Source: Siphonodentalium dalli (Eukaryota; Mollusca; Scaphopoda; Gadilida; Siphonodentaliidae). From it: 64,000 nt of DNA. Under the pieces are notes generated by a model that saw nothing but the letters and a program-made list of their open reading frames with translations, had not been told where the DNA came from and ran no database searches. The position numbers and the translations under genes were made by a program. This document shows, piece by piece, positions 29,301 to 59,300 of this stretch (positions are counted from its first letter, which is position 1; the number at the start of each line of letters is the position of its first letter). The stretch spans positions 7,022,036 through 7,086,035 of the forward strand of contig CP136069.1 of the NCBI GenBank assembly GCA_032622095.1, written 5' to 3'.

Positions 29301-32300
29301 CACCTTTTGCATGTGATTAAGTAAATTACGTTTTTAGAATCACAATTAAGTTTGCTCTGCATTTGATACGATATGCGTGTTTGTTCGCTGGTGAAAGTGT
29401 TACCAGTATTGATATATTCCATTGTATTGATGTAACATCGTTTTCTGTGACAAAATGAGGCTGAACCATTACCCGACACCGGCCGATTGTGCCGTATCCT
29501 TGTTGGCTCAGTCGATGTTGGGTCATGGCGTAACGATTCCAATTCTCTGAGAGTTTCGGACTTTACTTGGCGCAGTAATCTACTAGAGTAGCCGCGCGGT
29601 CGTAAAGCCTGGAAGAGCACCGAACAAGCTTGATTTAGGTCGCTTCTGTTCGTGCAGTTCCGGTGATATCGAATGATTTGAGATTTAATCAATCCATTGA
29701 AAAGTTTTGGCGGATGGAAAGATTTACGATGAAGTAGCTGGTGAGAATCCGTTGGTTTCGTAAAAAGTTTTGTATCTAAAATGTTGCATGATGTAAATTG
29801 TGGGCCCTTAAATATTGTTAAATCAAGGAAATCAATGCTGGTTTGCGATATTGATTCTTTGAGTTGGATTGATTCGTCATGACTGTTCAAGATGTCCAAG
29901 AACACCCTAAACTCATCCAGACCATGAGTCCAAATGATAAATATGTCGTCCAAGAATCTATAATAGGCTAATGGTTGTTTATCAGATTTGGCTAGGGCGC
30001 CTTTCTCCCACTCTGCAACAAAAATTGAGGCAAAATTAGGACTAAACTTCTTGCCCATACTGCAGCCGGAGACCTGTAAATAATATCGTCCATAAATTCA
30101 AAGTCATTCCCTTTAAGAGAAAGTTCTAATAATTGAAGTAGTTCATCTCCAGGTCTATCAGGATCATGGTGGAAATCAAATGCATTCTTAATTGACTTTA
30201 ATCCGGCATCGATTCCAATATTTGTATACATAGATTTCACGTCGAGACTAATTAGGTAAGCAGAAGATGGAACTTCAATTTTCGACAATTTAATGAGGAA
30301 GTCCTCCGTGTCTTTTAGATAGCTCGGATGGCGGGTAGCAATTGGTTTCAAATAGAAATCAATAAACTCCGAAATGTGGTACGACTCCGAAGCCACGTCG
30401 CTGATGATCGGGCGACCGGGTGGTGTGTATGGATTAGTCCAACAGCTCAAAGGTTTGTGTATTTTAGGTAGCAAATAAAATGTCCTATTATTGGATTCAG
30501 GTTTTGCAATTAGATACTGAACATGTTTTTTCTTTAAAACGTCCTGGTCCAGCAAGCTTTTGAGAATGAGATTGAATTTTAAAACATTGGATTTCCAAAT
30601 TGGCTCATCCAATGGTTTGTAATATTTAGTGTTGCTTAAATGGCGCGTCGCTTCTAGAATGTAATTTTCTTTAGACATGATGACGAGCGAGGAGCTGCCT
30701 TTGTCACAATGTTTGATTACAATGTTTTTATTGCTGCGAAGAGTTTTTAGTGCAGTTCTTTCAACTTTAGTAAGGTTATCCTCGTTGTGAAATTTTGGTA
30801 AATTTGTTATGTCGGTTTTGACTAAGCCAGCGACCTCGGGAATGGAGTGGTCAATCTGGCGGTCAGAGGGGGGTCCACATCGAAGGTTCTTTAAATAGAT
30901 AGATAGATACTTTATTGCGCAATCGCTATACGGATACAGGATATGGCAAAGAAAGAAAAAAAATAAACATGCAAATAAAATATATGACTAGAATATTTGT
31001 GCTGAGTGATTACAGTGTTATTGTCGTAATATTTCGGCTTCAATTAAATATTTACTTAGAGATCTGCTCAGTTGTTTATCATTAGATTTGAATATTTCTT
31101 GAAGCTTTTGGCGCTCGTCTAACACATCGTAATTTGATATCACATTCTTCGCGTAACTGCTAAAGACTTGCCTAGGATTGTGGTACTTCGGGCAGTGTAA
31201 TAAAAAGTGAGACTCATCTTCGATAGGTTTATCTTTAGCGGGCATATTATGACTACATTGTTTGCAAGTTCGTTCCTCTATACAACAGTATTGCGTGCTC
31301 GAGTTGCCGATGGAAAATCTAGTCCCCCAATTTGCCTCTTTGTTTTTGTTTCTATTTTGGTTAGGAACAAAGTTGGACAATAATTTAATTTTAATGAACA
31401 AAGCGATCATTTTGCATTGTCTGATGTTGTTGCCATGTGCAGCTTTACGAAATAGTATTAATCCACCTGATTCAATGTAAAAGTCATCTGTTGGCGTGCT
31501 GCCAAGTTGGCAGGAAACCACTAGTGAGAGATAAGAAAATATCTAATGGTTTTTTAAATGATATAATAGGGGTTTCATGTGATATAAAATAATTAATGAG
31601 CATTGTGTGCAGATATGCATGCATGGTTGTGGACCGCCAACATTGAGTCCTACCTGCACCGATTAAATTCCCATGATAACAATGGGCTACTGTTAGGAAA
31701 CCAGTGATAACTAAATAAGAAATGAAAAATCAAACGGAAAATGAACTCAAATATTCAGACAGTGTACATGCACAAAAGTACTGTGCAATTGAGTATGAAA
31801 TAAGGTAAACAAATGTTAAAAGGGATGGAAATCCAGATAAAGCACATGGTATCACTAGGTTACATCAAGTATTAATCCACTTCTCCCTGACGTCATTTCA
31901 GGGAAGACTTGCGGCCACACAGGGCGACTATTTCGCACACGTCGCCCCCTAGGCTGGTCCCTGCCTAGAGATTTCAAATTGGGAGAAATGACTTCTCCCT
32001 GTTGGGCTGTTATCATACACCCCAACATCACCCTTCTATGATCAATTAAGTATTACTCGACACAAGAGGCAATTTATAAACACATTATAGTAAATACACA
32101 GAACGACACGATGTGTAAATGGGTTTGTCGATACGACACTCATGCTGTCGCGGAAGGATAGAACGAGAGGCGCAAGCAAGCAAGCGCCTCTCGTTCTATC
32201 CTTCCGCGACAGCACGAGTGCCGTATCGACAAACCCATTTACACATCGTGTCGTTCTGTGTTTAATCCATGCTTCGCGTCCTAGAATCCGTGCATTAAAA

Positions 32301-35300: not shown

Positions 35301-38300
35301 TGTTGAATTTGCGTCCGACGATTAGCTTTCTTGAGTATATTCTCCCAACCTGCAAAGGTATCTGTGCCACGCGATTAGCTCGCTTTGCTAAATTTTCACA
35401 ACCTGCAAGTTTACGCGCATATGCCTAACGGAAATTGTATTCAATGGACAACATCTCTTACACTTATAATAAATTCTGAACAAATACATATAATAGTTAC
35501 TTTGTGATATGTTATACCATAATACCCATGATGGAAGCCTGGTACGCAATCAAATAATGTTAAAACCTTGGAACTATTTGTTTATAGTACGCAAGAATAT
35601 ACGTTGGAATGTCGTTGGATTTTTTACGCGATTGATATGACGTCAGTTCATTCATGATTTTGAACCATGCAACGACGTAACGAGCGCCTTGTATCGCAAC
35701 TGCAGTAATGATACGGATGCTTTTATCGCCAATTCGTTATCGCCAATTGTATCAGGGAATTTCGTAGGAAATGGTAGATAGAATGTGTTATAGAGGTGAC
35801 TAATGCGCGCCATCACCAACTTCAACTGGGAAACTTCAATTCAATCCTAGGTCTTCTCCCATACATGTAGCAGTTGCGGCCAAAGCAGAATGAGATCCCC
35901 AGAGGGTGAATTTAGTTATGCTAGCAGGATAGCATCACTGAATTCACCCTCTGTGTACCTCACTCTACAAATGACAGAAACACTATTTCAAGGCTTGCCC
36001 ACAATAATAACATCATACCTTGGAAAGTGAAATGATTCGTTCTGAGATTGGGTGAATTCTGTGATATTATATCGCCATTCATAATTTCCAGTCGAACTGT
36101 TGTAGAATTTTGATTTATAAACATTGAAGCACACTGAAATGAGATGTAAATTCCATGATATTACAGTAATGCTCTAATTAATCGACTCCTTAAACACAGC
36201 AGAATTATGGGTAACTTTTCAGGATTTAGTCGGAAATATGGCTTGTTGCCATTCATCGAAAAGCTATCCCCGAGAGCTTTCCGATGAATGGCAACAAGCC
36301 ATATTTCCGACTAAATCCTGAAAAGTAACCCATAATTCTGCTGTGTTTAAGGAGTCGATTAATTAGAGCATTACTGTATATCGCCATTCTTATTGAAACA
36401 TGCTGAATTAATGTAGATTGGGTGAATTCTGTGATATTATATCACATATCATATGCATGGTTTATCTGTTGTAAAATTTTGATTCATAAACATTGAAACA
36501 TGCTGAAATGAGATGTAATTTCTGTGATATTATATCGCCATTCTTATTGAAACATGCTGAATGAATGTAGATTGGGTGAATTCTGTGAAATTATATCATT
36601 TCATATGCCCAGCTAATCGGTTTTCATTCTAATTCACTAATTCAACCTCCTGACAGGTAAGTCCAATTTTGGCGACGCTAATTGGTCAGATGCCCAGGTG
36701 TAGCTGTCGTAAAATCATATGAATTTACATAGCTTGGCGCATGTGGCGAGCTATAGACCTGCTCATTAATACAAAATTCTGAAACTTTACGCAATCCCCC
36801 AGTAGTACATTCATTCCAAGGGACAACATTGTACACATCGGGAAAGTGTGTTTGAATCGCACATCGGCTTAATATAACCCTTTCTCAACTAAAGCATCAT
36901 TGATGAGTAGTTATCCCATAGGAAATGTTCAGATAATAAGTGTAACCCTTTCTATACTAAAGCTTCATTGATGAGTAGTTATCCCTTAGGAAATGTTCAG
37001 ATAATAAGATTAACCCTTTCTATACTAAAGCATCATTGATGAGTAGTTATCCCATAGGAAATGTTCAGATAATAAGTTTAATCCTTTCTATACTAAAGCA
37101 TCATTGATGAGTAGTTATCCCATTGAAACGTTCAGATAATAAGTTTAACTCTTTCTCAACTAAAGCATCATTGATGAGTAGTTATCCCATAGGAAATGTT
37201 CAGATAATAAGTGTAACCCTTTCTATACTAAAGCATCATTGATGAGTAGTTATCCCATTGAAATGTTCAGATAACAAGTTTAACCCTTTCTATACTAAAG
37301 CATCATTGATCAGTAGTTATCCCATTGAAATGTTCAGATAATAAGTTTAACCCTTTCTCAACTAAAGCATCATTGATGAGTAATTATCCCATAGGAAATG
37401 TTCAGATAATAAGTTTAACCCTTTCTATACTAAAGCATCATTGATGAGTAGTTATCCCATAGGAAATGTTCAGATAATAAGTTTAACCCTTTCTATACTA
37501 AAGCATCATTGATGAGTAGTTATCCCATAGGAAATGTTCAGATAATAAGTTTAACCCTTTCTATACTAAAGCATCATTGATGAGTAGTTATACCATAGGA
37601 AACGTTCAGATAATAAGTTTAACCCTTTCTATACTAAAGCATCATTGGTGAGTAGTTATCCCATAGGAAATGTTCACATAATAAGTGTAACCCTTTCTAT
37701 ACTAAAGCATCATTGATGAGTAGTTATCCCATAGGAAATGTTCTGATAATAAGTTTAACCCTTTCTATACTAAAGCATCATTGATGAGTAGTTATCCCAT
37801 AGGAAATGTTCACATAATAAGTGTAACCCTTTCTATACTAAAGCATCATTGATGAGTAGTTATCCCATAGGAAATGTTCTGATAATAAGTTTAACCCTTT
37901 CTATACTAAAGCATCATTGATGAGTAGTTATCCCAAAGGAAATGTTCAGTTAATAAGTTCAACAAACGACCATAGTTAGTTTGTTGATCTTATTATCTAA
38001 ACATTTCCCTTAATAAATAGAGCTCCTTCAGCACTTTTATTTATCTGTCGTCTGCTTTTCTCACCTTACCATCCCTCCAAATGAATAATAGACCATTCCA
38101 ATGTACACTCTCTGACTGACTGGAAGAATCCACTTAGAATGGAAACGGTTAATTCAATGTTGAGAAATTTATTCAGACAACCTGTTTACTTGAAATAGGT
38201 CTTTCGAAACGAATCAATAGACGTCAAAATCTTGACGGAATGATGATGGGATTGACAGGACACAACATTGTTGAAACGGTTGTTCGCTATACTGTGAAGT

Positions 38301-41300
38301 TTGATGTGTTTACCTTGGCCACGAAACTTGTGAAGTTCAATGTGTTTACCTTGGCCACGAAACTTGTGAAGTTCAATGTGTTTACCTTGGCCACGAAACT
38401 TGTGAAGTTCAATGTGTTTACCTTGGCCATGAAACTTGTATTTACTTATATAATTTATGCATATCCAATGTCAAATGGATTTGATATGGGATTAGAGTCA
38501 ATATATTTCACAGTTTCCTCTCAGTTTATTTCTATTCGAAATATGGAACTATATTTTCATGGAGCCCGTAACCAATTAGTAACTAGACTAGTCTTGAGCA
38601 CAAGTCACGCTAGTCAGGTTCTTGCTATGCCGGGTGTGTCTGTTCTATTGTCTATACCTGAATAGGCTTATGTCATGGGGGTTTATTACTTATGTCATGG
38701 GGGTTTATTACTTATGTCATGGGGGTTTATTACTTATGTCATGGGGGTTTATTACTTATGTCATGGGGGTTTATTACTTATGTCATGGGGGTTTATTACT
38801 TATGTCATGGGGGTTTATTACTTATGTCATGGGGGTTTATTACTTATGTCATGGGGGTTTATTACTTATGTCATGGGGGTTTATTACTTATGTCATGGGG
38901 GTTTATTACTTATGTCATGGGGGTTTATTACTTATGTCATGGGGGTTTATTACTTATGTCATGGGGGTTTATTACTTATGTCATGGGGGTTTATTACTTA
39001 TGTCATGGGGGTTTATTACTTATGTCATGGGGGTTTATTACTTATGTCATGGGGGTTTATTACTTATGTCATGGGGGTTTATTACTTATGTCATGGGGGT
39101 TTATTACTTATGTCATGGGGGTTTATTACTTATGTCATGGGGGTTTATTACTTATGTCATGGGGGTTTATTACTTATGTCATGGGGGTTTATTACTTATG
39201 TCATGGGGGTTTATTACTTATGTCATGGGGGTTTATTACTTATGTCATGGGGGTTTATTACTTATGTCATGGGGGTTTATTACTTGTGATGAAATTACTG
39301 TTTTGACTTTACCGGCTTGCCTTGTCACAACTTCTGAATCCATTCTGTTCAAAACTAAATAAAACTAGAGGTGTGACTGTCCCAATAAAATACTGTTTAT
39401 TCGGTTGATTTTCAGTACAGTATAGTTCTGTTTTGTTTATGACCACCTCCAGGGTTAAGGCTTTTCAATGTCATTGGTGACTGAATTTCACAGCAATTTC
39501 TTAACTATTTTGAAGTTTTTCAAGATCTCCAAACCTTGTGGGAACCTGGAACCCTAACTCTAAGAGCTCTTTCCATCAATGTATCACATTATTATAATCA
39601 ATAAATTTGAAAAATGATAAAGGAAATATGGGTTGATACAAAAATTGGACTTGGCACTGAAAGGGTTAAAACACACAAAAACTTTGAGATCTTGTTGCTG
39701 AACATACCCAAGCCTTGAAATAGGGTGTCTGTCATTTGCAGAATGAGGTCCCCAGAGGGTGAATTTAGTGATGCTACCCCGCATAGCGGGCTAGCATCAC
39801 CAAATTCACCCTCTGGGGACCTCATTCTGCTTACACCTCAGCAGAATGAGGTTCCCAGAGGGTGAATTTGGTGATGCTAGCCCGCTATGCGGGGTAGCAT
39901 CACTAAATTCACCCTCTGGGGACCTCATTCTGCAAATTACAGACACCCTATTTCAAGGCTTGAACTCACCTGTCTCTTGCTCGCTATCAAATACATAGGT
40001 CTCGTTACTGAAGAAGTTGCCTAGTTCATAGTAAGTCTTGCATAAAACAGGTGGTGTAACTGTACCATTCTGTACATCATACGTGAATGCTGACAGCGAT
40101 TGGTCTGGAACTATACTGTACTGAAAATCAACCGAACAAACAAGAAAGTCTTGAAATACAGTAATGCCATAAATAATCGACTCCTTAATGACAGCAGAAT
40201 TATGGGTAATTTTTCAGGATTTAGTCGGAAATATGGCTTGTTGCCATTCATCGAAAAGCTCTCATGATGAATAGCAACAAGCCATATTTCCAACTAAATC
40301 CTGAAAAATTACCTATAATTCTGCTGTGGTTAAGGAGTCGATTATTTAGGGCATTACTGTAGTATGTCTGTCATTTGCAGAATGAGATCCCCAGAGGGTG
40401 ATTTAGTGATGCTATCCTGCACAGCTAGAATCAAAAATTTCACCCTCTGGTGACTGCATTGTGCTTAGCCCTCATCTGATGGGAAACTTCTGTTAATTAT
40501 ATCCCCTAATTTGCAGAAGATAAATTGCATAATCAAGGTGACTAATGGGTGAACATCACCAACTTCAACTGGAGAACTTCAATCTGATCCTAGGTCTCCC
40601 ATAGCAGTTGAGGCTTAAGCAGAATGAGGTCCCCAGAGGGTGACTTTAGTTATGCTAGCCCGCTGTGTGGGATAGCGTCACTAAATTCACCCTCTGGGGA
40701 CCTCATTCTGCAAATGTCAGAAACACTATATCAAGGCTTGCCCACAATAATTAACATCATACCTTGAAAAGTGAAATGATTCGTTCTGATATTGGGTGAA
40801 TTCTGTGATATTATATGGCCATTCATACTTTCCAGTCGAATTGTTGTAAAATTTTGATTTATAAACATTGAAGCTCACTGAAATGAGAATTTGGTAACGA
40901 GAGCCCGCTGTCACTAAATTCACCCTTTGTGGACCTCATTCAAGTAAAACAGGGTCAATAATACTCTCTGTTGATCAATGATTATTCCGTTAAAAAAATG
41001 TGTTTTTACAGGTAACAACTAGTGGGTGTTTGACCAGGCAACACGACTGTCATGTTATTAATGAACCTCATACCTAGCACACTAGTATAACAGAAACAAA
41101 GTCAAAATAATGGACGGACAGATTGACCAAAAGGCCTTTCAGATAGTCAAACAAGGAGATTATAGAAAAAAGTAAAACAGTTTAAAACATATTTGTCATG
41201 TAAAATTCCCCAACATAATATTGGCGGTGTAAAACAATACTTGGAAAGAAATAACTGGTTGACCCAAATATCTAAAAATCTATAGTAAAATAACAAGAGC

Positions 41301-44300
41301 TACATTCGATGATCTACGTTTCGTTAATTTTCCGCTATTTTATAGGCAAGCATGTAATAAATTATTAACCCTTTGAGTGCCAGGGGCCGATCTCATCGGC
41401 CCTAAACCTACAAAATAAGTCTGTTAACCCTTTACCCAACAAACCGGCAAAAAACGCCCAAATAAAGCTTCAACAGCCTAAAATATCTTCGGTCTGTCTC
41501 AATAACACCATACAAATATGGATATCATTGGAACCGGTTCATTGACCACATTGTAATGGTTACAGTTATGCCCTGTGCCAATGCATTCTCTTATATATGC
41601 GAGTCGACCATAGGTCGCCTCGCATATATAAGAGAATGCATTGGCCTAAAAAAAAAAAAATTTAACACTGTTTACCATTTTTTCTTACATTCTTTAACAA
41701 TTTTATAATTTTTTCTTACATTTAAAAAAAAAAATTTTAATATTTTTCTACATTCTTTGACAATTTTATCATTTTTAATATGTGTTAAGCCAATGCATTC
41801 TCTTATATATGCGAGGCGACCTATGGTCGACTCGCATATATAAGAGAATGCATTGGCACAGGGCCGTTCTGTTGGGTAAAGGGTTAAAGAATATAAGAAT
41901 TATTAAAATTGTAAAAAAAAAAATGTTAGGCCAATGCATTCTCTTATATATGCGAGGCGACCTATGGTCGACTCGCATATAAAAGAGAATGCATTGGCAC
42001 AGGGTATATGGGTTGATACAAAAATCGACCTGGCGCTCAAAGGGTTATCTCTTTATATGTACTTCTGAAATAAGATATATTTGTTTCTGGTGCATAACTA
42101 CCATCTAACCAAGCCTCAAAATATGGCGCTGGACATTTGCAGAATGAGGTCCCAAGAGGGTGAACTGAGTGATGCTACCCTGCACAGTGGGCTAGCATCA
42201 CTAAATTCACCCTCTGGGGACTTCATTCTGCTTAGGCCCATCTATAGTATCAAATTAACAACTTTTTGAGTTTCTTTAGAAACTTCTTCACATTGATTCT
42301 ATTTCTTTTTTAGTACAGTTTTTCTATATTCCCAAATTGGCAGACGACACAAAGCATAATCGAGGTACCCAATGGGTGTTCATGTACATCACAACTTTCA
42401 CCATTTGGGAACTTAAATCTGAGTCTAGGTCTTCAATAGCAGATGAGGCCATGCAGAATGAGGTCCCCAGAGGATGAATTTAGTGATGCTATCCCATTGT
42501 GAGGGGTAGCATCACTAAATTCACCCTCTGGGGACCTCATTCTGCAAATGACCAGCACCATATTTTCAGGTCTGATTAATTCACTATTTCAGTCAAAGTT
42601 AATTGTAAATGTTTAATAGACATTCGGTAGTAACTGTGTCCAGATCTGGAGTGTGGTAGATATAAGGCAGGATTTCGGGAGACTCCCACCTAAATCGGTA
42701 AATTAAGCATGTCTGCATAGTACTTTTATTTCATCGCTACCCACTTTGACTGAAACACGTATAGCTAACTTTGAGCAATATAAAATTATAATCAGTTTTC
42801 TTAGTCATGAAAAGGTGCATGAGGCGAGTCCACCGTGTTGGCTCGAAACATTTGTTGGGAGTATTGTCTAAACTGAACTGGATGATATACATATATATCC
42901 AGAATCAGCGACCGAATTGGAAATATCGGGAAATTAATGAAATTCTAGAATTATTATCGATAACGTTTGTTTCGAAGATTTGAATTTATTCTGTGATATA
43001 ATTTAATTCACATGGTTAATCTCTGGATTAGTCAACAACATTTCAGCGAGAAGAGCGCCTCTCTCTCTCTTGTGTGAACAATATAAAAACTGAAAGAATG
43101 CTAAATTTACTAACTAAGCCCCTGATAAAGATTGCTCAAGTTAAATTTCTGTTGTCCTAATCTTATTTTCAAAGCCGTCATAACATGAGTATCTTGTGAT
43201 ATTCCTACCTGGTTTAATGCAAAGTCTAAGTGCTCAATAAGAGACTGCCTCGTATATAGAGCATAGGCACCAGTCGCGGGAGGATAAGGTAAGGTCTCGT
43301 AGCTAGGATCCCAGTCTTTGAGCAGCAGATGTTTCATAGCAATCGAGTTCCTCTCAACGTAGTCAACAAACTTACATCTGTATTTACCAAACAGCACGAG
43401 CTAAAAATGAAAGACAATTCATCAGCAGAACGTAGTCAACAAACTTGCATCTGTATTTACCAAACAGCACGAGCTAATGAAAGTGTCAATGACACTGTAG
43501 CTCAACTTTGGTTAGAAGTTAAATTTGTGTGATGAGCAATGAATGGAAAGATTTGGAATTGAATTTTGAAATCCAAGATGGCCACTGGCAGCCATGTTTT
43601 TTGTCCGAATGACCCCAAAATGACTCGTTCCCATCTACATTCCAATTTAAACAGCCCTGACAAATTTCATGATGATCAGACTAAAGCTACGACCTGTAGC
43701 CCGTGCTAAAGGATTTAGTCATGCAAAGAGTCAAATCCAAGATGGCTGCCAGCGGCCATGATTTTTGGCCGAATGACCCCAAAATTACTCGTTCCCATCT
43801 ACATTCCAATTTCAACAGCCATGACAAATTTCATGATGATCAGACTAAAGGTACGACCTGTAGCCTGTGCTAACGGATTTAGTCATACAAAGAGTAAAAT
43901 CCAAGATGGCTGCTGGTGGCCATATTTTTTGGCCGAATAACCCCAATATGACTCGTTCCCAACTACATGTCATTGTTAACATCCATGACACATTATATGA
44001 TGATCCGACCAAGGGTACGACCTGTAGGCCGTGCCCAAGAATTTAGTTCCCATCTATATGAACATGTCAATGTTAACATTCATGACAAATTTCATGATGA
44101 TCAGACCAAAGGTACAACCTGTAGCCCGTACTAATGACTCGTTCCCATCTACAATCCAATTTCAACAGCCATGACAAATTTCATGATGATCAGACTAAAG
44201 GTACGACCTGTAGCCCGTGCTAAAGGATTTAGTCATGCAAAGAGTAAAATCCAAAATGGCTGCAGGCAGCCATGTTTTTTTGCCGATTGACCCCAAAATG

Positions 44301-47300
44301 ACTCATTCCCATCTACATGTCATTGTTAACAACCATGAAAAAATTTATGATGATCCGACAAAAGGTACGACCTGTAGGCCATGCCAAAGAATTTAGTCAT
44401 GCAAAGAGTAAAATCTAAGATGGCTGCCGGTGGCCATGTTTTTTGGCCGAACAACCCCAAAATTACTCGTTCCCATCTACATGTCAATATTAATATCCAT
44501 GACAAATTTCATGATGATCAGACGAACAGTACGACCTGTAGCCCGTGCTAATGGATTGAATATTGAAATCCAAGGTGGCCACTGGCGGCCATGTTTTTTC
44601 CCCGAATGAACCCAAAATGACTCGTTCCCATCTACATGTCAATGTCAACAGCTATGACACATTTTATGATGATCCGACCAAGGGTACGACCTGTAGGCCG
44701 TGCCAAAGAATTTAGTCATGCAAAGAGTAAATCTAAGATGGCTGCCGGCAGCCATGTTTTTTGGCCGAAAGACCCCAAAATTACTCGTTCCCATCTACAT
44801 GTCAATGTTAACATTGATGACAAATTTCATGATGATCAGACTAAAGGTACGACCTGTAGCCCGTGCTAAAGGATTTAGTCATACAAAGAGTAAAATCCAA
44901 AATGGCTGCTGACGGCCATGTTTTTTTGCCGAATGACCCCAAAATGACTTGTTCCCATCTACATGTCATTGTTAACATTCAAGACAAATTTCATGATGAT
45001 CAGACCAAATGTACGACCTGTAGCCCGTGCTAATGGATTGAATTTTGAAATCCAAGATGGCTGCCAGCGGCCATGATTTTTGGCCGAATGACCCCAAAAT
45101 TACTCGTTCCCATCTACATTCCAATTTCAACAGCCATGAAAATTTCATGATGATCAGACTAAAGGTACGACCTGTAGCCCATACTAAAGGATTTAGTCAT
45201 ACAAAGAGTAAAATCCAAAATGGCTGCTGGCGGCCATGTTTTTCTGCCGATTGACCCCAAAATGACTCGTTCCCATCTACATGTCATTGTTAACATCCAT
45301 GAAAGGTACGACCTGTAGGCCGTGTCAAAGAATTTAGTCATGCAAAGAGTAAAATCTAAGATGGCTGCCGGTGGCCATGTTTTTTGGCCGAACAACCCCA
45401 AAATTAGTCGTTCCCATCTACATGTCAATATTAACATGCATGACAAATTTCATGATGATCAGACGAACAGTACGACCTGTAGCCCATGCTAATGGATTGA
45501 ATATTGAAATCCAAGATGGCCACTGGTGGCCATGTTTTTTTCCCGAATGAACCCAAAATGACTCGTTCCCATCTACATGTTAATGTCAACAGCTATGACA
45601 AATTTCATAATGATCCGACCAAAGGTACGACCTGTAGGCCGTGCCAAAGAATTTAGTCATGCAAAGAGTAAATCTAAGATGGCTGCCGACAGCCATGTTT
45701 TTTGGCCAAACGTAGTCAACAAACTTACATCTGTATTTATCAAACATCACGAGCTAAAAATGAAAGACAATTCATCAGCAGAACGTAGTCAACAAACTTA
45801 CATCTGTATTTACCGAACAGCACAAGCTAAAAATGATTGACAATTCATATACAATAATGCCATAAATAACCGACTCCTTAACCACAGCAGAACGTAGTCA
45901 ACAAACTTACATCTGTATTTACCAAACAGCACAAACTAAAAATGAAAGACAATTCATATACAGGAGGCCCACACCCCCCCCCTTTTCGTACGCCGTATTC
46001 CATGCCCTGTTATGAGGTACGCCGTATTCCGGCCCCTCTGTTAGGAGGTATTCGGTATTCCAAAAATACCGGTATTCGTACGCCGACCTTCGACACCTTC
46101 CAAAAAATGATCATAATAATAATATAAATGCGATTTTTGCCACAATAAATTCACGGTTTGATATACAGATCGTCGATCATCGTCATTTTAGATCATTTTA
46201 GACGTGGACACTGCGGAATGACCGGCGTTCGTACGGCAATAGAAAATTTATCTGGAAAATTCCAATTGGCTGTTAACTGGTATTCCGTATTCCACCATCT
46301 GTGTTAAGTGGTATTCCGTATTCCAGGGGGTGGGGGCCTTATACAGTAATGCCCTAAATAACCGACTCCTTGACCACAGCAGAATTTGGGGTAATTTTTC
46401 AGGATTTAGTCAGAAATATGGCTTGTTGCCATTCATCAGAAAGGTCTCACTGAGAGCTTTCCGATGAATGGCAACAAGCCATATTTCTGACTAAATCCTG
46501 AAAAATTACCCATAATTCTGCTGGGGTTAAGAAGTCGATTATTTAGGGCATTACTGTATACCCATTTATTAGATGATTTTCACTGAAATAACAGAGTTTT
46601 GTCTGCAACATAATAAGGGGGAGGGGGAATTGTAGTTGAATATTTAAAGGTGAGCAATTGAGACCCTGTAGCCACGTCCCTGTTTACAAGTTTCAATTCA
46701 AATGGTCTAGCTATTCTTAATCCGTTTTGATATTCAGATGAAATATGCAAATAACCAACAGGGAAACATGGATTCATTTGCAGGGAAGGTCAATCCGTTA
46801 ATAAGAGTCCAAAGCTGTTGTTGAAGTTACTAGGGACCAGCCTAGAGGTTTCAAATTAGGAGCAGTCACTTCTCCCTAGACTGGTGCTCAGAAACCAGCC
46901 TAGAGGTTTCAAATAGGGAGAGGTAACTTACTAACTTAATCGGTAACTACTCAAGAAGTATTTGGTTATCAACAAGCCTGTCATTTGCAGAATGAGGTCC
47001 CCAGAGGGTGAATTTAGTGACGCTATCCCACATAGCGGGCTTGCATCACTAAATTCAACCTCTGGGGACCTCATTCTGCTTAGGCCTCATCTTCTCTGGA
47101 AAGTTTCTTTATTATCAAATTTCTATAGAAACTTCTAAACATAGATTCTATTTCTTTTTTAGTTAGTTTCTCTATATCCCCAAATTAGCAGATGACACAT
47201 TGCATAATCGAGGTTCCCAATGGGTGTACATCACAATATTCACCATTTGGGAACCTCATTCTGAGTCTATGTCTCCCACAGCAGATGAGGCCATACAGAA

Positions 47301-50300
47301 TGAGGTCCCCAGAGGGTGAATTTGGTGATGCTAGCCAGCTATGTGGGATAGCGTCACTAAATTCAACCTCTGGGGACCTCATTCTGCAAATGACAGGCAC
47401 ACTAAACTGAGGCTTGGTTATCAAAATGTTATAGTGCAGTTCTAAAATTTAGGAGATAATAAAAATAGATTGTCTATTAGTAATTTACCGTAGTTCATTT
47501 ACACATAAGGCTAAATAAGTTAAAATAATGTGCGTTCTCAGGCTCCTCCCTCGTCACCCAAAGTGAGCCTCTTAAAACAAATTAAAATAATGTGTTCTGA
47601 GGCACCTCCCTCATCACCCAAAGAGAGCCGCATAAAAAAATAAAAATAACGTTCTCAGGGACCTCCCTCGTCACCCAAAGAGAGCCTCATGAATAAATAA
47701 AAATAATGTGTGTTCTCAAGGATCTCCCTCATCACACAAAGAGAGCCTCATAAATAAATAAAAATAATGTGTTCTCAGGCACCTCCCTCATCACACAAAG
47801 AGAGCCTCATAAATAAATAAAAATAATGTGTTCTCAGGCACCTCCCTCATCACCCAAAGTGAGCCTCTTAAAACAAATTAAAATACTGTGTTCTCAGGCA
47901 CCTCCCTCATCACCCAAAGAGAGCCTCATAAATAAATAAAAATACTGTGTTCTGAGGCACCTCCCTCGTCACACAAAGAGAGCCTCATAAATAAATAAAA
48001 ATAATGTGTTCTCAGGCACCTCCCTCATCACCCAAAGTGAGCCTCATAAATAAATAAAAATACTGTGTTCTGAGGCACCTCCCTCGTCACACAAAGAGAG
48101 CCTCATAAATAAATAAAAATAATGTGTTCTCAGGCACCTCCCTCATCACCCAAAGTGAGCCTCTTAAAACAAATTAAAATACTGTGTTCTGAGGCACCTC
48201 CCTCATCACCCAAAGAGAGCCGCATAAAAAAATAAAAATAACGTTCTCAGGGACCTCCCTCGTCACCCAAAGAGAGCCTCATGAATAAATAAAAATAATG
48301 TGTTCTCAGGCACCTCCCTCATCACCCAAAGAGAGCCTCATAAATAAATAAAAATACTGTGTTCTGAGGCACCTCCCTCGTCACACAAAGAGAGCCTCAT
48401 AAATAAATAAAAATAATGTGTTCTCAGGCACCTCCCTCATCACCCAAAGTGAGCCTCTTAAAACAAATTAAAATACTGTGTTCTGAGGCACCTCCCTCAT
48501 CACACAAAGAGAGCCGCATAAAAAAATAAAAATAATGTGTGTTCTCAAGGACCTCCCTCATCACACAAAGAGAGCCTCATAAATAAATAAAAATAATGTG
48601 TGTTCTCAAGGACCTCCCTCATCACACAAAGAGAGCCGCATAAAAAAATATAAATAACGTTCTCAGGCACCTCCCTCATCACCCAAAGAGAGCCTCATGA
48701 ATAAATAAAAATAATGTGTTCTCAGGGACCTCCCTCGTCACCCAAAGAGAGCCTCATGAATAAATAAAAATAATGTGTTCTCAGGCACCTCCCTCATCAC
48801 CCAACGTGAGCCTCTTAAAACAAATTAAAATACTGTGTTCTGAGGCACCTCCCTCATCACCCAAAGAGAGCCACATAAAAAAATATAAATAACGTTCTCA
48901 GGGATCTCCCTCATCACACAAAGAGAGCCTCATGAATAAATAAAAATAATGTGTTCTCAGGCACCTCCCTCATCACCCAAAGTGAGCCACATCAAAAAAT
49001 ATAAATAATGTGTTCTGAGGCACCTCCATCATCACCCAAAGAGAGCCGCATAAAAAAATAAAAATAACGTTCTCAGGGATCTCCCTCGTCACCCAAAGAG
49101 AGCCTCATGAATAAATAAAAATAATGTGTTCTCAGGCACCTCCCTCATCACCCAAAGAGAGCCTCATAAATAAATAAAAATAATGTGTTCTGAGGCACCT
49201 ACCTCATCACCCAAAGAGAGCCTCATGAATAAATAAAAATAATGTGTTCTCAGGCACCTCCCTCATCACCCAAAGAGAGCCGCATAAAAAAATAAAAATA
49301 ACGTTCTCAGGGACCTCCCTCGTCACCCAAAGAGAGCCTCATGAATAAATAAAAATAATGTGTTCTCAGGCACCTCCCTCATCACCCAAAGAGAGCCGCA
49401 TAAAAAAATAAAAATAACGTTCTCAGGGATCTCCCTCGTCACCCAAAGAGAGCCTCATGAATAAATAAAAATAATGTGTTCTCAGGCACCTCCCTCATCA
49501 CCCAAAGAGAGCCTCATAAATAAATAAAAATAATGTGTTCTGAGGCACCTCCCTCATCACCCAAAGAGAGCCACATCAAAAAATATAAATAATGTGTGTT
49601 CTCAGGCTCCTCCCTCGTCACCCAAAGAGAGCCTCATGAATAAATAAAAATAATGTGTTCTCAGGCACCTCCCTCATCACCCAAAGAGAGCCTCATGAAT
49701 AAAAATACTGTGTTCTGAGGCACCTCCCTCATCACCCAAAGAGAGCCTCATGAATAAAAATAATGTGTTCTCAGGCTCCTCCCTCATCACCCAAAGAGAG
49801 CCGCATAAAAAAATAAAAATAACGTTCTCAGGGACCTCCCTCGTCACCCAAAGAGAGCCTCATGAATAAATAAAAATAATGTGTTCTCAGGCACCTCCCT
49901 CATCACCCAAAGAGAGCCGCATAAAAAAATAAAAATAACGTTCTCAGGGATCTCCCTCGTCACCCAAAGAGAGCCTCATGAATAAATAAAAATAATGTGT
50001 TCTCAGGCACCTCCCTCATCACCCAAAGAGAGCCTCATAAATAAATAAAAATAATGTGTTCTCAGGCACCTCCCTCATCACCCAAAGAGAGCCTCATGAA
50101 TAAAAATACTGTGTTCTGAGGCACCTCCCTCATCACCCAAAGAGAGCCTCATGAATAAAAATAATGTGTTCTCAGGCTCCTCCCTCATCACCCAAAGAGA
50201 GCCTCATAAATAAATAAAAATAATGTGTTCTCAGGCACCTCCCTCATCACCCAAAGAGAGCTGCATAAAAAAATAAAAATAACGTTCTCAGGGATCTCCC

Positions 50301-53300
50301 TCGTCACCCAAAGAGAGCCTCATGAATAAATAAAAATAATGTGTTCTCAGGCACCTCCCTCATCACCCAAAGAGAGCCTCATAAATAAATAAAAATAATG
50401 TGTTCTGAGGCACCTACCTCATCACCCAAAGAGAGCCTCATGAATAAATAAAAATAATGTGTTCTCAGGCACCTCCCTCATCACCCAAAGAGAGCCGCAT
50501 AAAAAAATAAAAATAACGTTCTCAGGGACCTCCCTCGTCACCCAAAGAGAGCCTCATGAATAAATAAAAATAATGTGTTCTCAGGCACCTCCCTCATCAC
50601 CCAAAGAGAGCCGCATAAAAAAATAAAAATAACGTTCTCAGGGATCTCCCTCGTCACCCAAAGAGAGCCTCATGAATAAATAAAAATAATGTGTTCTCAG
50701 GCACCTCCCTCATCACCCAAAGAGAGCCTCATAAATAAATAAAAATAATGTGTTCTCAGGCACCTCCCTCATCACCCAAAGAGAGCCTCATGAATAAAAA
50801 TACTGTGTTCTCAGGCTCCTCCCTCATCACCCAAAGAGAGCCTCATGAATAAATAAAAATAATGTGTTCTCAGGCACCTCCCTCATCACACAAAGAGAGC
50901 CTCATGAATAAAAATAATGTGTTCTCAGGCTCCTCCCTCATCACCCAAAGAGAGCCTCATAAATAAATAAAAATAATGTGTTCTCAGGGACCTCCCTCAT
51001 CACCCAAAGTGAGCCTCTTAAAACAAATTAAAATACTGTGTTCTCAGGCACCTCCATCATCACCCAAAGAGAGCCTCATAAATAAATAAAAATAACGTTC
51101 TCAGGGACCTCCCTCATCACCCAAAGAGAGCTGCATAAAAAAATAAAAATACTGTGTTCTGAGGCACCTCCCTCATCACCCAAAGAGAGCCGCATAAAAA
51201 TATAAAAATAACGTTCTCAGGGACCTCCCTCGTCACCCAAAGAGAGCCTCATGAATAAATAAAAATAATGTGTTCTCAGGGACCTCCCTCGTCACCCAAA
51301 GAGAGCCTCATAAATAAATAAAAATAATGTGTTCTCAGGCACCTCCCTCATCACCCAAAGAGAGCCGCATAAAAAAATAAAAATAATGTGTGTTCTCAAG
51401 GATCTCCCTCATCACACAAAGAGAGCCACATAAAAAAATAACAATAACGTTCTCAGGCACCTCCATCATCACCCAAAGTGAGCCTCTTAAAACAAATTAA
51501 AATACTGTGTTCTCAGGCACCTCCATCATCACCCAAAGAGAGCCTCATAAATAAATAAAAATAACGTTCTCAGGGACCTCCCTCGTCACCCAAAGAGAGC
51601 CTCATGAATAAATAAAAATAATGTGTTCTCAGGGACCTCCCTCGTCACCCAAAGAGAGCCTCATAAATAAATAAAAATAATGTGTTCTCAGGCACCTCCC
51701 TCATCACCCAAAGAGAGCCGCATAAAAAAATAAAAATAACGTTCTCAGGGATCTCCCTCGTCACCCAAAGAGAGCCTCATGAATAAATAAAAATAATGTG
51801 TTCTCAGGCACCTCCCTCATCACCCAAAGAGAGCCTCATGAATAAATAAAAATAATGTGTTCTCAGGGACCTCCCTCGTCACCCAAAGAGAGCCTCATGA
51901 ATAAATAAAAATAATGTGTTCTCAGGCACCTCCCTCATCACCCAAAGAGAGCCGCATAAAAAAATAAAAATAACGTTCTCAGGGACCTCCCTCGTCACCC
52001 AAAGAGAGCCTCATGAATAAATAAAAATAATGTGTTCTCAGGCACCTCCCTCATCACACGGACATTTACAGAATAAGGTCCACAGAGGGTGAATTTAGTG
52101 ACGCTATCCCGGCTAGTGGACTAGCATTACTAAATTCACTTATGTGGACCTCATTCCGCTTAGGCCTCACCTTCTCTGGAAGGTATCTTAATTATTAAAT
52201 TAAGAAGTTTTTTGGTTTCTTAAGATATTTCTTCAGAAGGTTTCTCTTTTTCTTTTTTAGTTTTAAGTTTCTCTATTTCACCAAATTGGCAGATGACACA
52301 ATGCATTTATAATCAAGCTGACCATTGAATGAGTGCAGATCACCATCTGGAAACTTAAATATGTGTCTAGGTCTCCCATAGCAGATGAGGCCATGCAGAA
52401 TGAGGTCCCCAGAGGGTGAATATGATGTGGAGTAGCATCACTACATTTCCCCTGTGGTAAATAATATGTTGTGTATAATGTAATCTGGTCATTCGAAAAT
52501 TAAGTGGGCCTTTAATCTAAGGAATATAATATGATTATTCGGCGCACCTACAGTTACGGAAATCGGCTCTTATCAGGGAATGGATTTGGAAAGTCCACAT
52601 CGTATCCATTGTTGGTTTTCGCACAAGCCCCAGAGTGAGTACTTAATCATATTAAAGGTATTCAACTGTGACATTTTACAAATGTCTGGCATCTTATTAT
52701 CAGGCCTGCTGTGAATCATAATAACTAACCTGATATGTGACTAACCTGATATGTGACTAACCTGATATGTGACTAACCTGATATGTGACTAACCTGATAT
52801 GTGACTAACCTGATATGTTACTAACCTGATGTTACTAACCTGATATGTTACTAACCTGATATGTGACTAACCTGATATGTGACTAACCTGATATGTGACT
52901 AACCTGATATGTTACTAACCTGATATGTTACTAACCTGATATGTTATTAACCTGATATGTTACTAACCTGATATGTTACTAACCTGATATGTGACTAAAT
53001 TGATATGTAACTAACCTGATATGTGACTAACCTGATATGTGACTAACCTGATATGTGACTAACCTGATATGTTACTAACCTGATATGTGACTAAATTGAT
53101 ATGTAACTAACCTGATATGTGACTAACCTGATATGTATCTAACCTGATATGTGACTAACCTGATATGTGACTAACCTGATATGTGACTAAATTGATATGT
53201 AACTAACCTGATATGTGACTAACCTGATATGTATCTAACCTGATATGTGACTAACCTGATATGTGACTAACCTGATATGTATCTAACCTGATATGTGACT

Positions 53301-56300
53301 AACCTGATATGTGACTAACCTGATATGTAACTAACCTGATATGTGACTAACCTGATATGTGACTAACCTGATATGTGACTAACCTGATATGTATCTAACC
53401 TGATATGTGACTAACCTGATATGTAACTAACCTGATATGTAACTAACCTGATATGTGACTAACCTGATATGTATCTAACCTGATATGTGACTAACCTGAT
53501 ATGTGACTAACCTGATATGTATCTAGCCTGATATGTGACTAACCTGATATGTGACTAACCTGATATGTGACTAACCTGATATGTATCTAGCCTGATATGT
53601 GACTAAATTGATATGTGACTAACCTGATATGTGACTAACCTGATATGTGACTAACCTGATATGTGACTAACCTGATATGTGATTAACCTGATATGTTACT
53701 AACCTGATATGTTACTAACCTGATATGTTACTAACCTGATATGTTACTAAATTGATATGTAACTAACCTGATATGTGACTAACCTGATATGTGACTAACC
53801 TGATATGTGACTAACCTGATATGTGACTAACCTGATATGTTACTAACCTGATATGTGACTAAATTGATATGTAACTAACCTGATATGTGACTAACCTGAT
53901 ATGTATCTAACCTGATATGTGACTAACCTGATATGTGACTAACCTGATATGTTACTAACCTGATATGTGACTAAATTGATATGTAACTAACCTGATATGT
54001 GACTAACCTGATATGTATCTAACCTGATATGTGACTAACCTGATATGTGACTAACCTGATATGTATCTAACATGATATGTGACTAACCTGATATGTGACT
54101 AACCTGATATGTGACTAACCTGATATGTGACTAACCTGATATGTGACTAACCTGATATGTATCTAACCTGATATGTGACTAACCTGATATGTAACTAACC
54201 TGATATGTAACTAACCTGATATGTGACTAACCTGATATGTATCTAACCTGATATGTGACTAACCTGATATGTGACTAACCTGATATGTATCTAACCTGAT
54301 ATGTGACTAACCTGATATGTAACTAACCTGATATGTAACTAACCTGATATGTGACTAACCTGATATGTATCTAACCTGATATGTGACTAAATTGATATGT
54401 GACTAACCTGATATGTGACTAAATTGATATGTATCTAACCTGATATGTGACTAACTTGATATGTGACTAAATTGATAAGTATCTAACCTGATATGTGACT
54501 AAATTGATATGTAACTAACCTGATATGTGACTAACCTGATATTGACTAACCTGATATGTGACTAAACTGATGTGACTAACCTGATATTGACTAGCCTCAT
54601 ATGTGATTAACCTGATGTGTGACTAACCTGATATGTAACTAACCTGATATTGACTAACCTGATATGTGACTAACCTGATATTGACTAACCTGATATGTGA
54701 CTAACCTGATGTTGACTAACCTGATATTGACTAACCTGATATTGACTAACCTGATATTGACTAACCTGATATGTGACTAACCTGATATGTGACTAACCTG
54801 ATATGTGACTAACTTGATGTGTTCATAGTGACTAAATTGATATGTGACTAAATTGATGTGTGACGAACCTGATATTGACAAACCTGATATGTGACTAACC
54901 AAGTAACTAACCTGAAATGTGACTGACCTGATATGTGACTAACCTGGTATGTGACTAACCTGATGTGTTCATAGTGACTAAATTGATATGTGACAAACTG
55001 ATATGTGACTAACCTGACATGTGACTAACCAGATATGTGACTAACCTGACATGTGACTAACCTGATATGTGACTAACCTGATATTGACTAACTGATATGT
55101 TACTGACCTGATATGTGACTAACCTGATAAGTGACTAACCATGTGACTAACCTGATATGTGACTAACCTGATGTGACTAACCATGTGACTAACCTGATAT
55201 GTGACTAACCTGGTATGTGACTAACCTGATATGTGACTAACCTGATATTGACTAACCTGATATGTTACTGACCTGATATGTGACTAACCTGATAAGTGAC
55301 TAACCATGTGACTAACCTGATATGTGACTAACCTGATATTGACTAACCTGATGTTACTGACCTGATATGTGACTAACCTGATAAGTGACTAACCTGATAT
55401 TTGACTAACCTGATATGTGACTAACCATGTGACTAACCATGTGACTAACCTGGTATGTGACTAACCTGATATGTGACTAACCTGATATTGACTAACCAGA
55501 TATGTGACTAACCTGATATTGACTAACCAGATATGTGACTAACCTGATATGTGACTAACCTTATATGTGACTAACCTGATATGTGACTAACCTGATATGT
55601 GATTAACCTGATATGTGACTAACCTGATGTGTGACTAACCATGTGACTAACCTGATATGTGACTAACCTGATGTGACTAACCATGTGACTAACCTGATAT
55701 GTGACTAACCTGATATGTGACTAACCATGTGACTAACATGATATTGACTAACCTGATATGTGACTAACCTGATATGTGACTAACCTGATGTGTGACTAAC
55801 CATGTGACTAACCTGATGTGTGACTAACCTGATGTGACTAACCATGTGACTAACCTGATATGTGACTAACCATGTGACTAACCTGATATTGACTAACCTG
55901 ATATGTGACTAACCTGATATTAACTAACCTGATGTGTGACTAACCTGATATTGACTAACCAGATATGTGACTAACCTGATATGTGACTAACCTGATATGT
56001 GACTAACCTGATATGTGACTAACCTGATATGTGACTAACCTGATATGTGACTAACCGTGTGACTAACCATGTGACTAACCTGATATGTGACTAACCATGT
56101 GACTAACCATGTGACTAACCTGATATGTGACTAACCTGATGTGTGACTAACCTGATGTGTGACTAACCTGATGTGACTAACCATGTGACTAACCTGATAT
56201 GTGACTAACCTGATATGTGACTAACCTGATATGTGACTAACCTGATATGTGACTAACCTGATGTGTGACTAACCTGATGTGACTAACCATGTGACTAACC

Positions 56301-59300
56301 TGATATGTGACTAACCTGATATGTATCTAACCTGATATGTGACTAACCTGATATGTGACTAACATGATATTGACTAACCTGATATGTGACTAACCTGATA
56401 TGTGACTAACCTGATATGTGACTAAACTGATATGTGAATAACCTGATATGTGACTAACCTGATAAATGACTAACCTGACGTGTGACTAACCTGATATGTG
56501 AATAACCTGATATGTGACTAACCTGATAAATGACTAACCTGATGTGACTAACCATGTGACTAACCATGTGACTAACCTGATATGTGACTAACCTGATATG
56601 TGACTAACCTGATATGTGACCAGAATAACCTTGATGAGCTGCAGCATGAGTTTGTAAGGCACTCTCCGTCGAGCTTTAAATTTCTGAATCGGGTCCATAA
56701 AATGAAACTTGAGCATTCTGCGGAATCGGTCTTCCATGTGAGGCGTATACGCTGACTTCATGTCATGATCGGCTCTCTGGATATCTTCCTCCTGTATGCT
56801 AGCATGAGATGCATCCCTCACGTCGAAATGACCCCCACTGTTTTCTTCTTCATCATCTAAAGTAAAATTAACCCTATCTTTACTAAGTTAATTCTGCCAT
56901 TCAGTAAATGTATACAATGGAATTGTTTTTTATCATCTGGAGGGATGTAAAATAAGCAGACGACAGATAATACAAAACAGAAGGATTCCTATTCATAGGT
57001 GGGAAATATTCATAAAATAAGTTCAACAAACAGCCTGTGTTAACCCTTTCAGTGCCAGGTCCGATTTTTGTATCAACCCATATACCCTGTACCATCTGAT
57101 ATATGCGAGTCGACCATAGGTCGTCTCGCATATATAAGAGAATGCATGGCCTAACAATTTTTCATCATTTGTTATTATTTTTTACAATTTTATACAATTT
57201 TAATAATTTTTTCTTATATTCTTTAACAGACTTATTTTGTAGGTTTAGTGCCAGGGAATCTTACGTTTTTTATGGGCATCAAAATTATTACTATGAATAC
57301 TTGGTGATAGTTTTGAGTTATAACATGCCCCTAAGGTTTTATCCAGTTTGTTTTTAAATTCGCTATAGCACACCCAAAAAAAATTCAACCCAAACAAATT
57401 AAAAAAAAAAATTTTAGGGCCGATTTTACAGACTGTAAATTAGGTAACCGACCATGTGTCCCCCCCCCCAAAAGGTGGCTTTTCTCCATGTATAAACAAG
57501 AGCATCGCTAGAGAATGTTAAAATACACCTGTTAGCCATTTCGAAATGCACTACAGCAAAAGCTTACAAAGAATATCTGATATACCCCTAATTTCAATGC
57601 CAAAATGTAGCCAATTTCTAAGTCGAAAAAGGGCCATAACTCATGTGAAAATAATTGGAATAACTTGGTCTGTGGTTTAGTTTGGAAACACACATACAAG
57701 CTTTGGTTCAGATCAAATAATCCAAACAGGAGTTATAGATCAGAAACCGAAATGTTATAAAATCGGTTAAATTCTAAGTCGAAAAAGGGTTGTACATGTA
57801 ACTCATGTAAAAATAATTGGACAGAACCCATATTCAAACTTGGACTACATGTACATATTTGTTCAGATAAAATGATCCAAACTGGAGTTATTGGTCGGTA
57901 ACCAACAATGTTAACACCCCGACTTGCGGACTGATGGAAGGACTAATTACATAATATGACAGTTTTTTTTCAAACGGGCGTATAAAGCGGGTTAGCATCA
58001 CCAAATTAACCTTCTGAGACCTCATTCTACTTAGGCCTCACCTAGTAGAAAATATCTATAGTCTCAAATTAACATTGTTTTTAGTTACTATTTCCCTTCT
58101 GGGAAGTTTCTATATCACATAATTTTCAGAAGATAAAATCCATAATCGAGGTGCCCTATGGGTCTCCCATAGCAGATGAGGTCTAAGCAGAATGAGGTCC
58201 CCAGAGGGAGAATTTGGTGATGCTAGCCCACTATGCAAGGTAGCGTCACTAAATTCACCCTCTGGGGACCTCATTCTGCAAATGACAGACACACTATAAT
58301 CATGCCAATGAATAGGTATTAACCCTATCTTTATTAAATACTCATTGACGCATAGTTCCTTTATGAAATTGCCAAATAATAGGTCCAATAACAGCATTCT
58401 ATCAAAAATCAGTCGTCTGCTTATATCCTGAAAACCCCTCAAAATGAATAATAGACCATTCCAATATACTCTATTATAACTAGGTGGGAGAATCAATTTA
58501 GTAAAGAAAGGGTTAAGTACTTCATATAAGGCCAATATAAATAAATAGCTAGATTTACATTTTCAGAAAAAATGTGGTGGGAGGGCAAATTTTATTTTTT
58601 ATATATTATAGCTGGGGTACCTGGCATTGCTCGGGTAAAGAATCAGTAAATTATTAGTGCCCCTTCAAGTCATTTAAATTAATTATTAGCCACTTAAGGT
58701 AAACTTTACAAATGCCCTTTATTGCTAATTATTAGTTCCTTTTTAATTCATCTGAGGTCAATGGCACCTATGGATGACACTCCCTGTGACACTTCCCCCA
58801 TATTTTCTGAGCTGATAATAAATGCTCTTTATTGAACATTTACATGTATGTTAATATAATTTACCTGTTTTACCTGACTATGAATTTTGCCGTCGACTAG
58901 TCAGAACATAGTGCATTAGTTACACGTATAACGCTTTCAAGATCGATTCCGGCATAAACGGTGTTAACTGCGCGTAAGTTACGGTAAGTATAACGTTTGG
59001 TGGCACCCGGAATTGACAGTATTACTAGTATAGACACATGGTGACCCGACTATTAATTGAAAAAATGAAATTGACAACACAATGTCTCACTCGTCGTTTG
59101 AGGTCAAAGACATCACTGCGACATGATGGCAATGATTGACGCAGCTTTATCGTTTGTCGGAGACCGCTTTGATCTAGACACTGTGTTTATTTCAATTCAT
59201 CTCGCACCGTCGGGTTATGATGTGACGCTGTGTGGAGGTCGCTTAAGGTGACGTCATTGGTGCTACCGTATATAAATGATACTGACATTAAAAACTGGCT

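Follow-up and report, generated by a model that had tools for sequence, protein, structure and literature searches.

A 16-bp minisatellite built on the exon 2 splice donor of a mucolipin gene, probably of the mirage type

Tandem repeats that carry splice sites are reportedly known from the Adh3 gene of amphioxus, in which Canestro et al. are said by citing papers to have found 'mirages' in 2002, and from the human 6-16/IFI6 gene, whose minisatellite, by accounts of the 1995 work of Turri et al., provides multiple splice donors. In the portions available to us, two papers describe mirages as tandem repeats that run over exon-intron boundaries, in the amphioxus globin genes BflGb6 and BflGb9 (PMC3087553) and in PGBD5 and troponin C (PMC3902484). 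The hosts described there are cephalochordates, the units measure 10-72 bp in Adh3, 150-160 bp in BflGb6, 157 bp in BflGb9 and 60 and 108 bp in PGBD5, and many units, not all, keep AG/GT (PMC3087553, PMC3902484). According to the same portions, splicing appears normal despite the mirages, judging by reverse transcription PCR of the globins and by older Adh3 data (PMC3087553), and the mirages of Adh and troponin C are said not to yield aberrant mRNAs (PMC3902484); the AG/GT of the repeats is regarded as a possible source of cryptic sites and the repeats are proposed as a route to new introns (PMC3087553). Here we analyse a window of 64,000 nucleotides (contig CP136069.1, positions 7,022,036 to 7,086,035 of the forward strand) with a minus-strand gene that, judged by homology, is a mucolipin (TRPML) gene, and in which a 16-bp segment spanning the donor of exon 2 is repeated about 250 times (Table 1; exon numbers are our own). 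We consider it quite probable that this array is a minisatellite of the mirage type, a tolerated by-product of mutation, and that the donor adjacent to the exon is the one used.

In gene sense, the array starts inside exon 2 as GTCACATATCAG/GTTAGTCACATATCAG/GTTAGT and goes on likewise (slashes mark donor boundaries here and below), and Tandem Repeats Finder (TRF) reports head-to-tail units with a period of 16, 250.1 copies and a score of 5764. The unit is itself an exon-intron boundary, with about 12 bases from the exon and 4 from the intron, and the authentic junction, where the exon ends at 56609 and the array at 56620, is the unit at the gene-proximal edge. An earlier note on this DNA had recognised both the array of donor copies in a mucolipin gene and the place of the real junction at its edge, and TRF, the exon boundaries and phmmer bear it out; it was also right that a couple of hundred donors follow the true one, as we count 228 GT-bearing units downstream, all closer to the 3' splice site. 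Its division of the unit into 11 exonic and 5 intronic bases correctly spans the junction but is off by one from TRF, which takes in 12 exon bases, the register being ambiguous by one base. With units anchored on the gene strand at up to 4/9 mismatches to CAGGTTAGT, exact CAG/GTTAGT (CAGGTTAGT) is found in 173 of 250 units, the true donor counted, and the spacing is exactly 16 in 196 of 249 cases. There are 51 distinct types among 249 units. Moving away from the exon, the first 60 units comprise 18 types, the next 60 comprise 30, the following 70 comprise 16 and the final 59 comprise 8, the intron-side end being the most uniform part. This uneven variation points to local turnover of the units and fits a minisatellite.

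The array thus shares with mirages the head-to-tail repeat, the boundary-spanning unit, the authentic junction at the edge of the cluster and the retention of GT at the donor position, here in 229 of 250 anchored units with the true donor included. It differs in scale, since the globin and PGBD5 cases, as far as the sources at hand describe them, comprise 2-7 units, and in that one gene has junction copies at three places, unlike the amphioxus mirages described there; moreover, splicing with mirages was examined in amphioxus, whereas the mucolipin array is known from genomic sequence. A mirage would also be expected to vary in length between haplotypes or tissues; the analysis covers one haplotype. 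The architecture is not unprecedented but belongs to a kind already described, preceded by the published amphioxus mirages and the human 6-16/IFI6 donor minisatellite; its scale and the three junction sites in one gene may be new. A literature search combining mucolipin, intron and minisatellite surfaced only a cannabinoid-receptor paper. Two joined 16-bp units found no match in viral, bacterial and archaeal contigs, which says little.

Table 1. Coordinates of the mucolipin exons, intron 2 and the junction copies in the window
Feature	Position	Strand	Basis or remark
16-bp x about 250 array of exon 2 donor, probable mirage-type minisatellite	52724..56620	-	TRF, unit parse, frames
28-bp x 16 array with the exon 1 donor as its gene-proximal unit	60777..61224	-	TRF, sequence, unit list, U1 energies
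Exon 3 acceptor copy	43429..43483	-	exon-like start 43473; blastn 93%; frame
Exon 3 acceptor copy	45709..45783	-	exon-like start 45753; blastn 97%; frame
Exon 3 acceptor copy	45782..45848	-	exon-like start 45826; blastn 94%; frame
Exon 3 acceptor copy	45891..45957	-	exon-like start 45935; blastn 97%; frame
Mucolipin exon 1, coding part (MNPSIYRN...LSDS)	61217..61466	-	phase-1 donor CTCAG/GTACGT
Mucolipin exon 2	56609..56856	-	protein end KVILVTYQ; DNA end CATATCAG/GTTAGT
Intron 2	43401..56608	-	13,208 nt; 82% in TRF arrays
Mucolipin exon 3 (LVLFGKYRCKFVDYV...FALNQ)	43209..43400	-	Pfam MCLN_ECD; tblastn
Mucolipin exon 4	39970-40120	-	weak own support: Pfam E 0.0013; tblastn E 0.029
Exon 8 donor	13652	-	mucolipin gene

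Exon 2, which ends in GTCACATATCAG/GTTAGT at 56609/56608 and whose protein ends in ...MLQLIKVILVTYQ, matched 11 solved mucolipin sequences (TRPML1, 2 and 3) in phmmer with E values from 5.3e-9 to 2e-8; all 11 matches extend to the last residue, Q, and the C-terminal VTYQ faces VTIQ in both printed alignments, both of TRPML3. A tblastn search with a human MCOLN3 sequence placed exons 2 (E 7.9e-10), 3 (E 1.1e-5), 7, 8, 9 and 10 one after another along the minus strand. Exon 3 is similar to Pfam MCLN_ECD (E 6.7e-5; 23.2 bits, not reaching the curated cut-off of 27.1) and gave no match at E 0.001 in a phmmer search of solved structures; neither exon 1 nor exon 2 has a Pfam match at E up to 1. Exon 1, which has no homology support, was assigned by its ATG, open frame, position and phase-1 donor, which fits the exon 2 acceptor in an in-frame join, and exon 2, in phase 0, leads on to LVLFG of exon 3; the phases are consistent with normal splicing. 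Is the locus dead, as a pseudogene copy would be, or is the length or position of the array an artefact of assembly? Secure exons for MCOLN3 residues about 185-285 were not found in a focused search (best candidate E 0.41), nor were residues after about 440 found by tblastn in the window, as might be expected of such a locus. However, all eight assigned exons are open and AG/GT-bounded, with compatible phases wherever the neighbours are known, and the diversity of unit types speaks against a looped assembly, so that we regard a dead or misassembled locus as distinctly improbable. The exons for residues after about 440 are probably located beyond the left end of the window. A weak candidate for an extracytosolic-domain exon (LVMFYRLIKFDLEFAF..., E 0.41) lies within 20949-21263 on the minus strand and is excluded from all counts.

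How did the array arise? The alignment of VTYQ with VTIQ, together with the reach of all 11 matches to the last residue, indicates that the coding copy is the older one and that the array is derived from it. The gene span is rich in repeats (29 merged TRF arrays), which could suggest that an unrelated satellite merely came to lie beside exon 2. However, the 12 coding bases in the unit align to other mucolipins and are in exact register with the junction, and on these grounds we rejected a chance neighbour, an explanation to which we give next to no credence. Our preferred explanation is that a 16-bp segment over the exon 2 donor would have been duplicated in tandem and subsequently amplified to about 250 units within intron 2. 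A duplication over a donor keeps the original beside the exon while the copy lands in the intron, where it would do no harm if the exon-adjacent donor is chosen, as exon definition may favour; further copies could then build up in the intron, and transcripts from later donors would carry an early stop and be lost.

The same pattern at the exon 1 donor and at the exon 3 acceptor argues for such a by-product. Exon 1 ends in TGACTCAG/GTACGT, followed by a 28-bp array of the same junction, in which GT is kept in 12 of 15 further units and 10 of 15 are predicted to out-pair the authentic donor with U1, two copies with CAG/GTAAGT reaching -12.1 kcal/mol versus -7.9 kcal/mol for the authentic donor. 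Read-through past exon 1 yields GTFSVIS and a stop ahead of the donor of the first further unit. Farther upstream, intron 2 contains four incomplete additional copies of the exon 3 acceptor, TTTCATTTTTAG/CTCGTGCTGTTTGG..., which extend into the beginning of exon 3 (blastn identity of 93-97% in alignments of 58-75 nt) and whose frames run into stops after 28, 29, 41 or 55 codons; a 164-bp array of 2.1 kb separates the nearest copy from the other three. Intron 2 therefore bears hundreds of donor copies at its start and a few acceptor copies at its end. The second donor array and the copied acceptor are features that the earlier note did not describe. Intron 2 also has a 4.5-kb array of 59-bp units near the donor array (47512-52057), apparently unrelated to the assigned exons. 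When the eight assigned exons with 30-bp flanks were searched by blastn at E up to 0.05, no further array was tied to an exon: exon 1 had 15 matches outside its own array, and in all eight of those listed 19 nt of the AT-rich 5' flank matched the 59-bp array; exon 2 had three short matches elsewhere; exon 4 matched a dispersed element six times through its intron-4 flank and also gave one inverted copy; and exons 7-10 matched themselves alone. At 39394-39428 on the plus strand, about 0.55 kb past exon 4 in the next intron, the exon 4 acceptor junction recurs in inverted form over 35 nt (97%).

What would happen if a later donor were used? All 228 downstream GT units are predicted to lead to a premature stop, which the earlier note had foreseen as VSHISG for any shifted choice. 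This is the case for 227 of them, while the first downstream unit, with 16 nt retained, reads into exon 3 as VSHISARAVW before its stop. It is conceivable that controlled use of array donors lowers mucolipin output through these stop codons. The exon 1 array could be cited in favour, as it likewise keeps GT in most units and the frame runs into a stop after 23 nt of intron, ahead of its first further unit. However, any out-of-frame unit containing TAG brings stops anyway, the donor positions of the 196 16-mer units are not uniformly better conserved than the other positions, and published mirages are reported, in the portions at hand, without aberrant mRNAs (PMC3087553, PMC3902484). Regulated unproductive splicing, which had been suggested for the array, is thus unsupported and in our view has a slim chance at best. 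The companion suggestion, that the array probes donor choice by proximity, fares better: given the identity of the units and the predicted stops, the array amounts to a natural donor-competition construct.

Another scenario is that the array acts as a ratchet. Full units ending in CAG/GTTAGT are both acceptor-like and donor-like, and to judge from the sequence, splicing of exon 2 onto any full unit would regenerate the same donor, so that the intron could be excised in several steps, with errors healing themselves. Drosophila ratchet points, as described in the available part of PMC8605326, resemble the array in such a juxtaposition of acceptor and donor sites, with AG/GT regenerating the donor, but the mucolipin array has a weak acceptor part and a tandem layout. 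Its 203 AGs are preceded by 6-9 pyrimidines in 15 positions, versus 9-14 in all seven real acceptors, a crude measure whose ranges touch at 9, and by longest pyrimidine runs of 2-3 versus 4-13; a good pyrimidine-tract acceptor directly before the donor, as in a recursive splice site, is not found in the array. Stepwise removal by a ratchet therefore strikes us as very unlikely. The same holds for an extended version of it, in which a self-healing run of acceptor-donor units would offer some 200 U1 docking sites that protect the true junction as well as the long intron, with leakage ending in stops, and to which we attach just as little weight. Shielding by U1 sites against premature polyadenylation was set aside, since the gene strand of intron 2 (13.2 kb) has only two AATAAA and one ATTAAA, none of them inside the array, and little need for such shielding is visible.

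Several points weigh against the array being a by-product with an exon-adjacent donor in use. While we infer the state of the exon 2 junction before its duplication, it is likewise from sequence that we infer the use of the exon-adjacent donor, and U1 pairing does not set this donor apart: in duplex energies computed with the U1 5' end, the true exon 2 donor has -8.2 kcal/mol, a value equalled or bettered by 174 of the 248 other scored units, which together with the donor itself makes 175 of 249 (the last array unit is too short to score). Across the gene, donor energies lie between -5.5 and -12.7 kcal/mol, exon 8 left out. Since U1 pairing is not distinctive, another factor, for example proximity to the exon, would have to settle the choice. 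Human 6-16/IFI6 provides a precedent for the opposite choice, as two downstream repeat units are used there and three mRNA species result, according to the part of PMC4526556 available. The likeness lies in minisatellite units with splice donors; the difference, as far as that source goes, is that the later GT units of the mucolipin array are all predicted to lead to stops. One control, too, does not single out junctions as sites of duplication. Eight donor and seven acceptor junctions were scanned with 24-base windows for at least 19 matches within 15 kb, and three of these 15 had nearby copies, compared with 42% of 1500 random gene positions and, by the same criterion, 10 of 347 exon-interior positions. 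On the supporting side, a junction is covered by two of the 29 TRF arrays of the gene span, whereas 5000 random placements give a mean of 0.10 or 0.26 and a probability of two or more of 0.004 or 0.027, when 15 or 40 exon bases of overlap are allowed, respectively; this permutation was devised once the outcome was known and relies on array limits merged by hand from TRF rows. The donor array is plainly beyond chance as a repeat; the evidence for a preference of repeats for junctions is mixed.

The array constitutes a natural competition between one authentic donor and 228 GT-bearing copies, none of which leaves the reading frame open. It shows that minisatellites over a junction can grow to 3.9 kb and that the same gene can have several of its junctions affected, a finding of interest for the lengthening of introns and possibly for the origin of new ones. 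In AGGT-segment intron gain, a splice-site sequence is likewise duplicated in tandem within a gene, but the duplicate creates a new intron, as the accessible part of PMC4974935 describes, while in the mucolipin gene an existing intron is lengthened. Should the host not be a lancelet, the range of the mirage phenomenon would widen.

Elsewhere in the window, a 36-bp x 4 array (38293-38439, minus strand) contains AAG/GTAAAC on the gene strand. It was considered as another donor array and rejected, as no exon was recognised beside this motif. An open frame at 28835-30097 on the minus strand, a putative Penelope-like element, has a weak reverse-transcriptase match (E 0.046, below the cut-off) and encodes a GIY-YIG endonuclease domain (Pfam E 4.6e-8).

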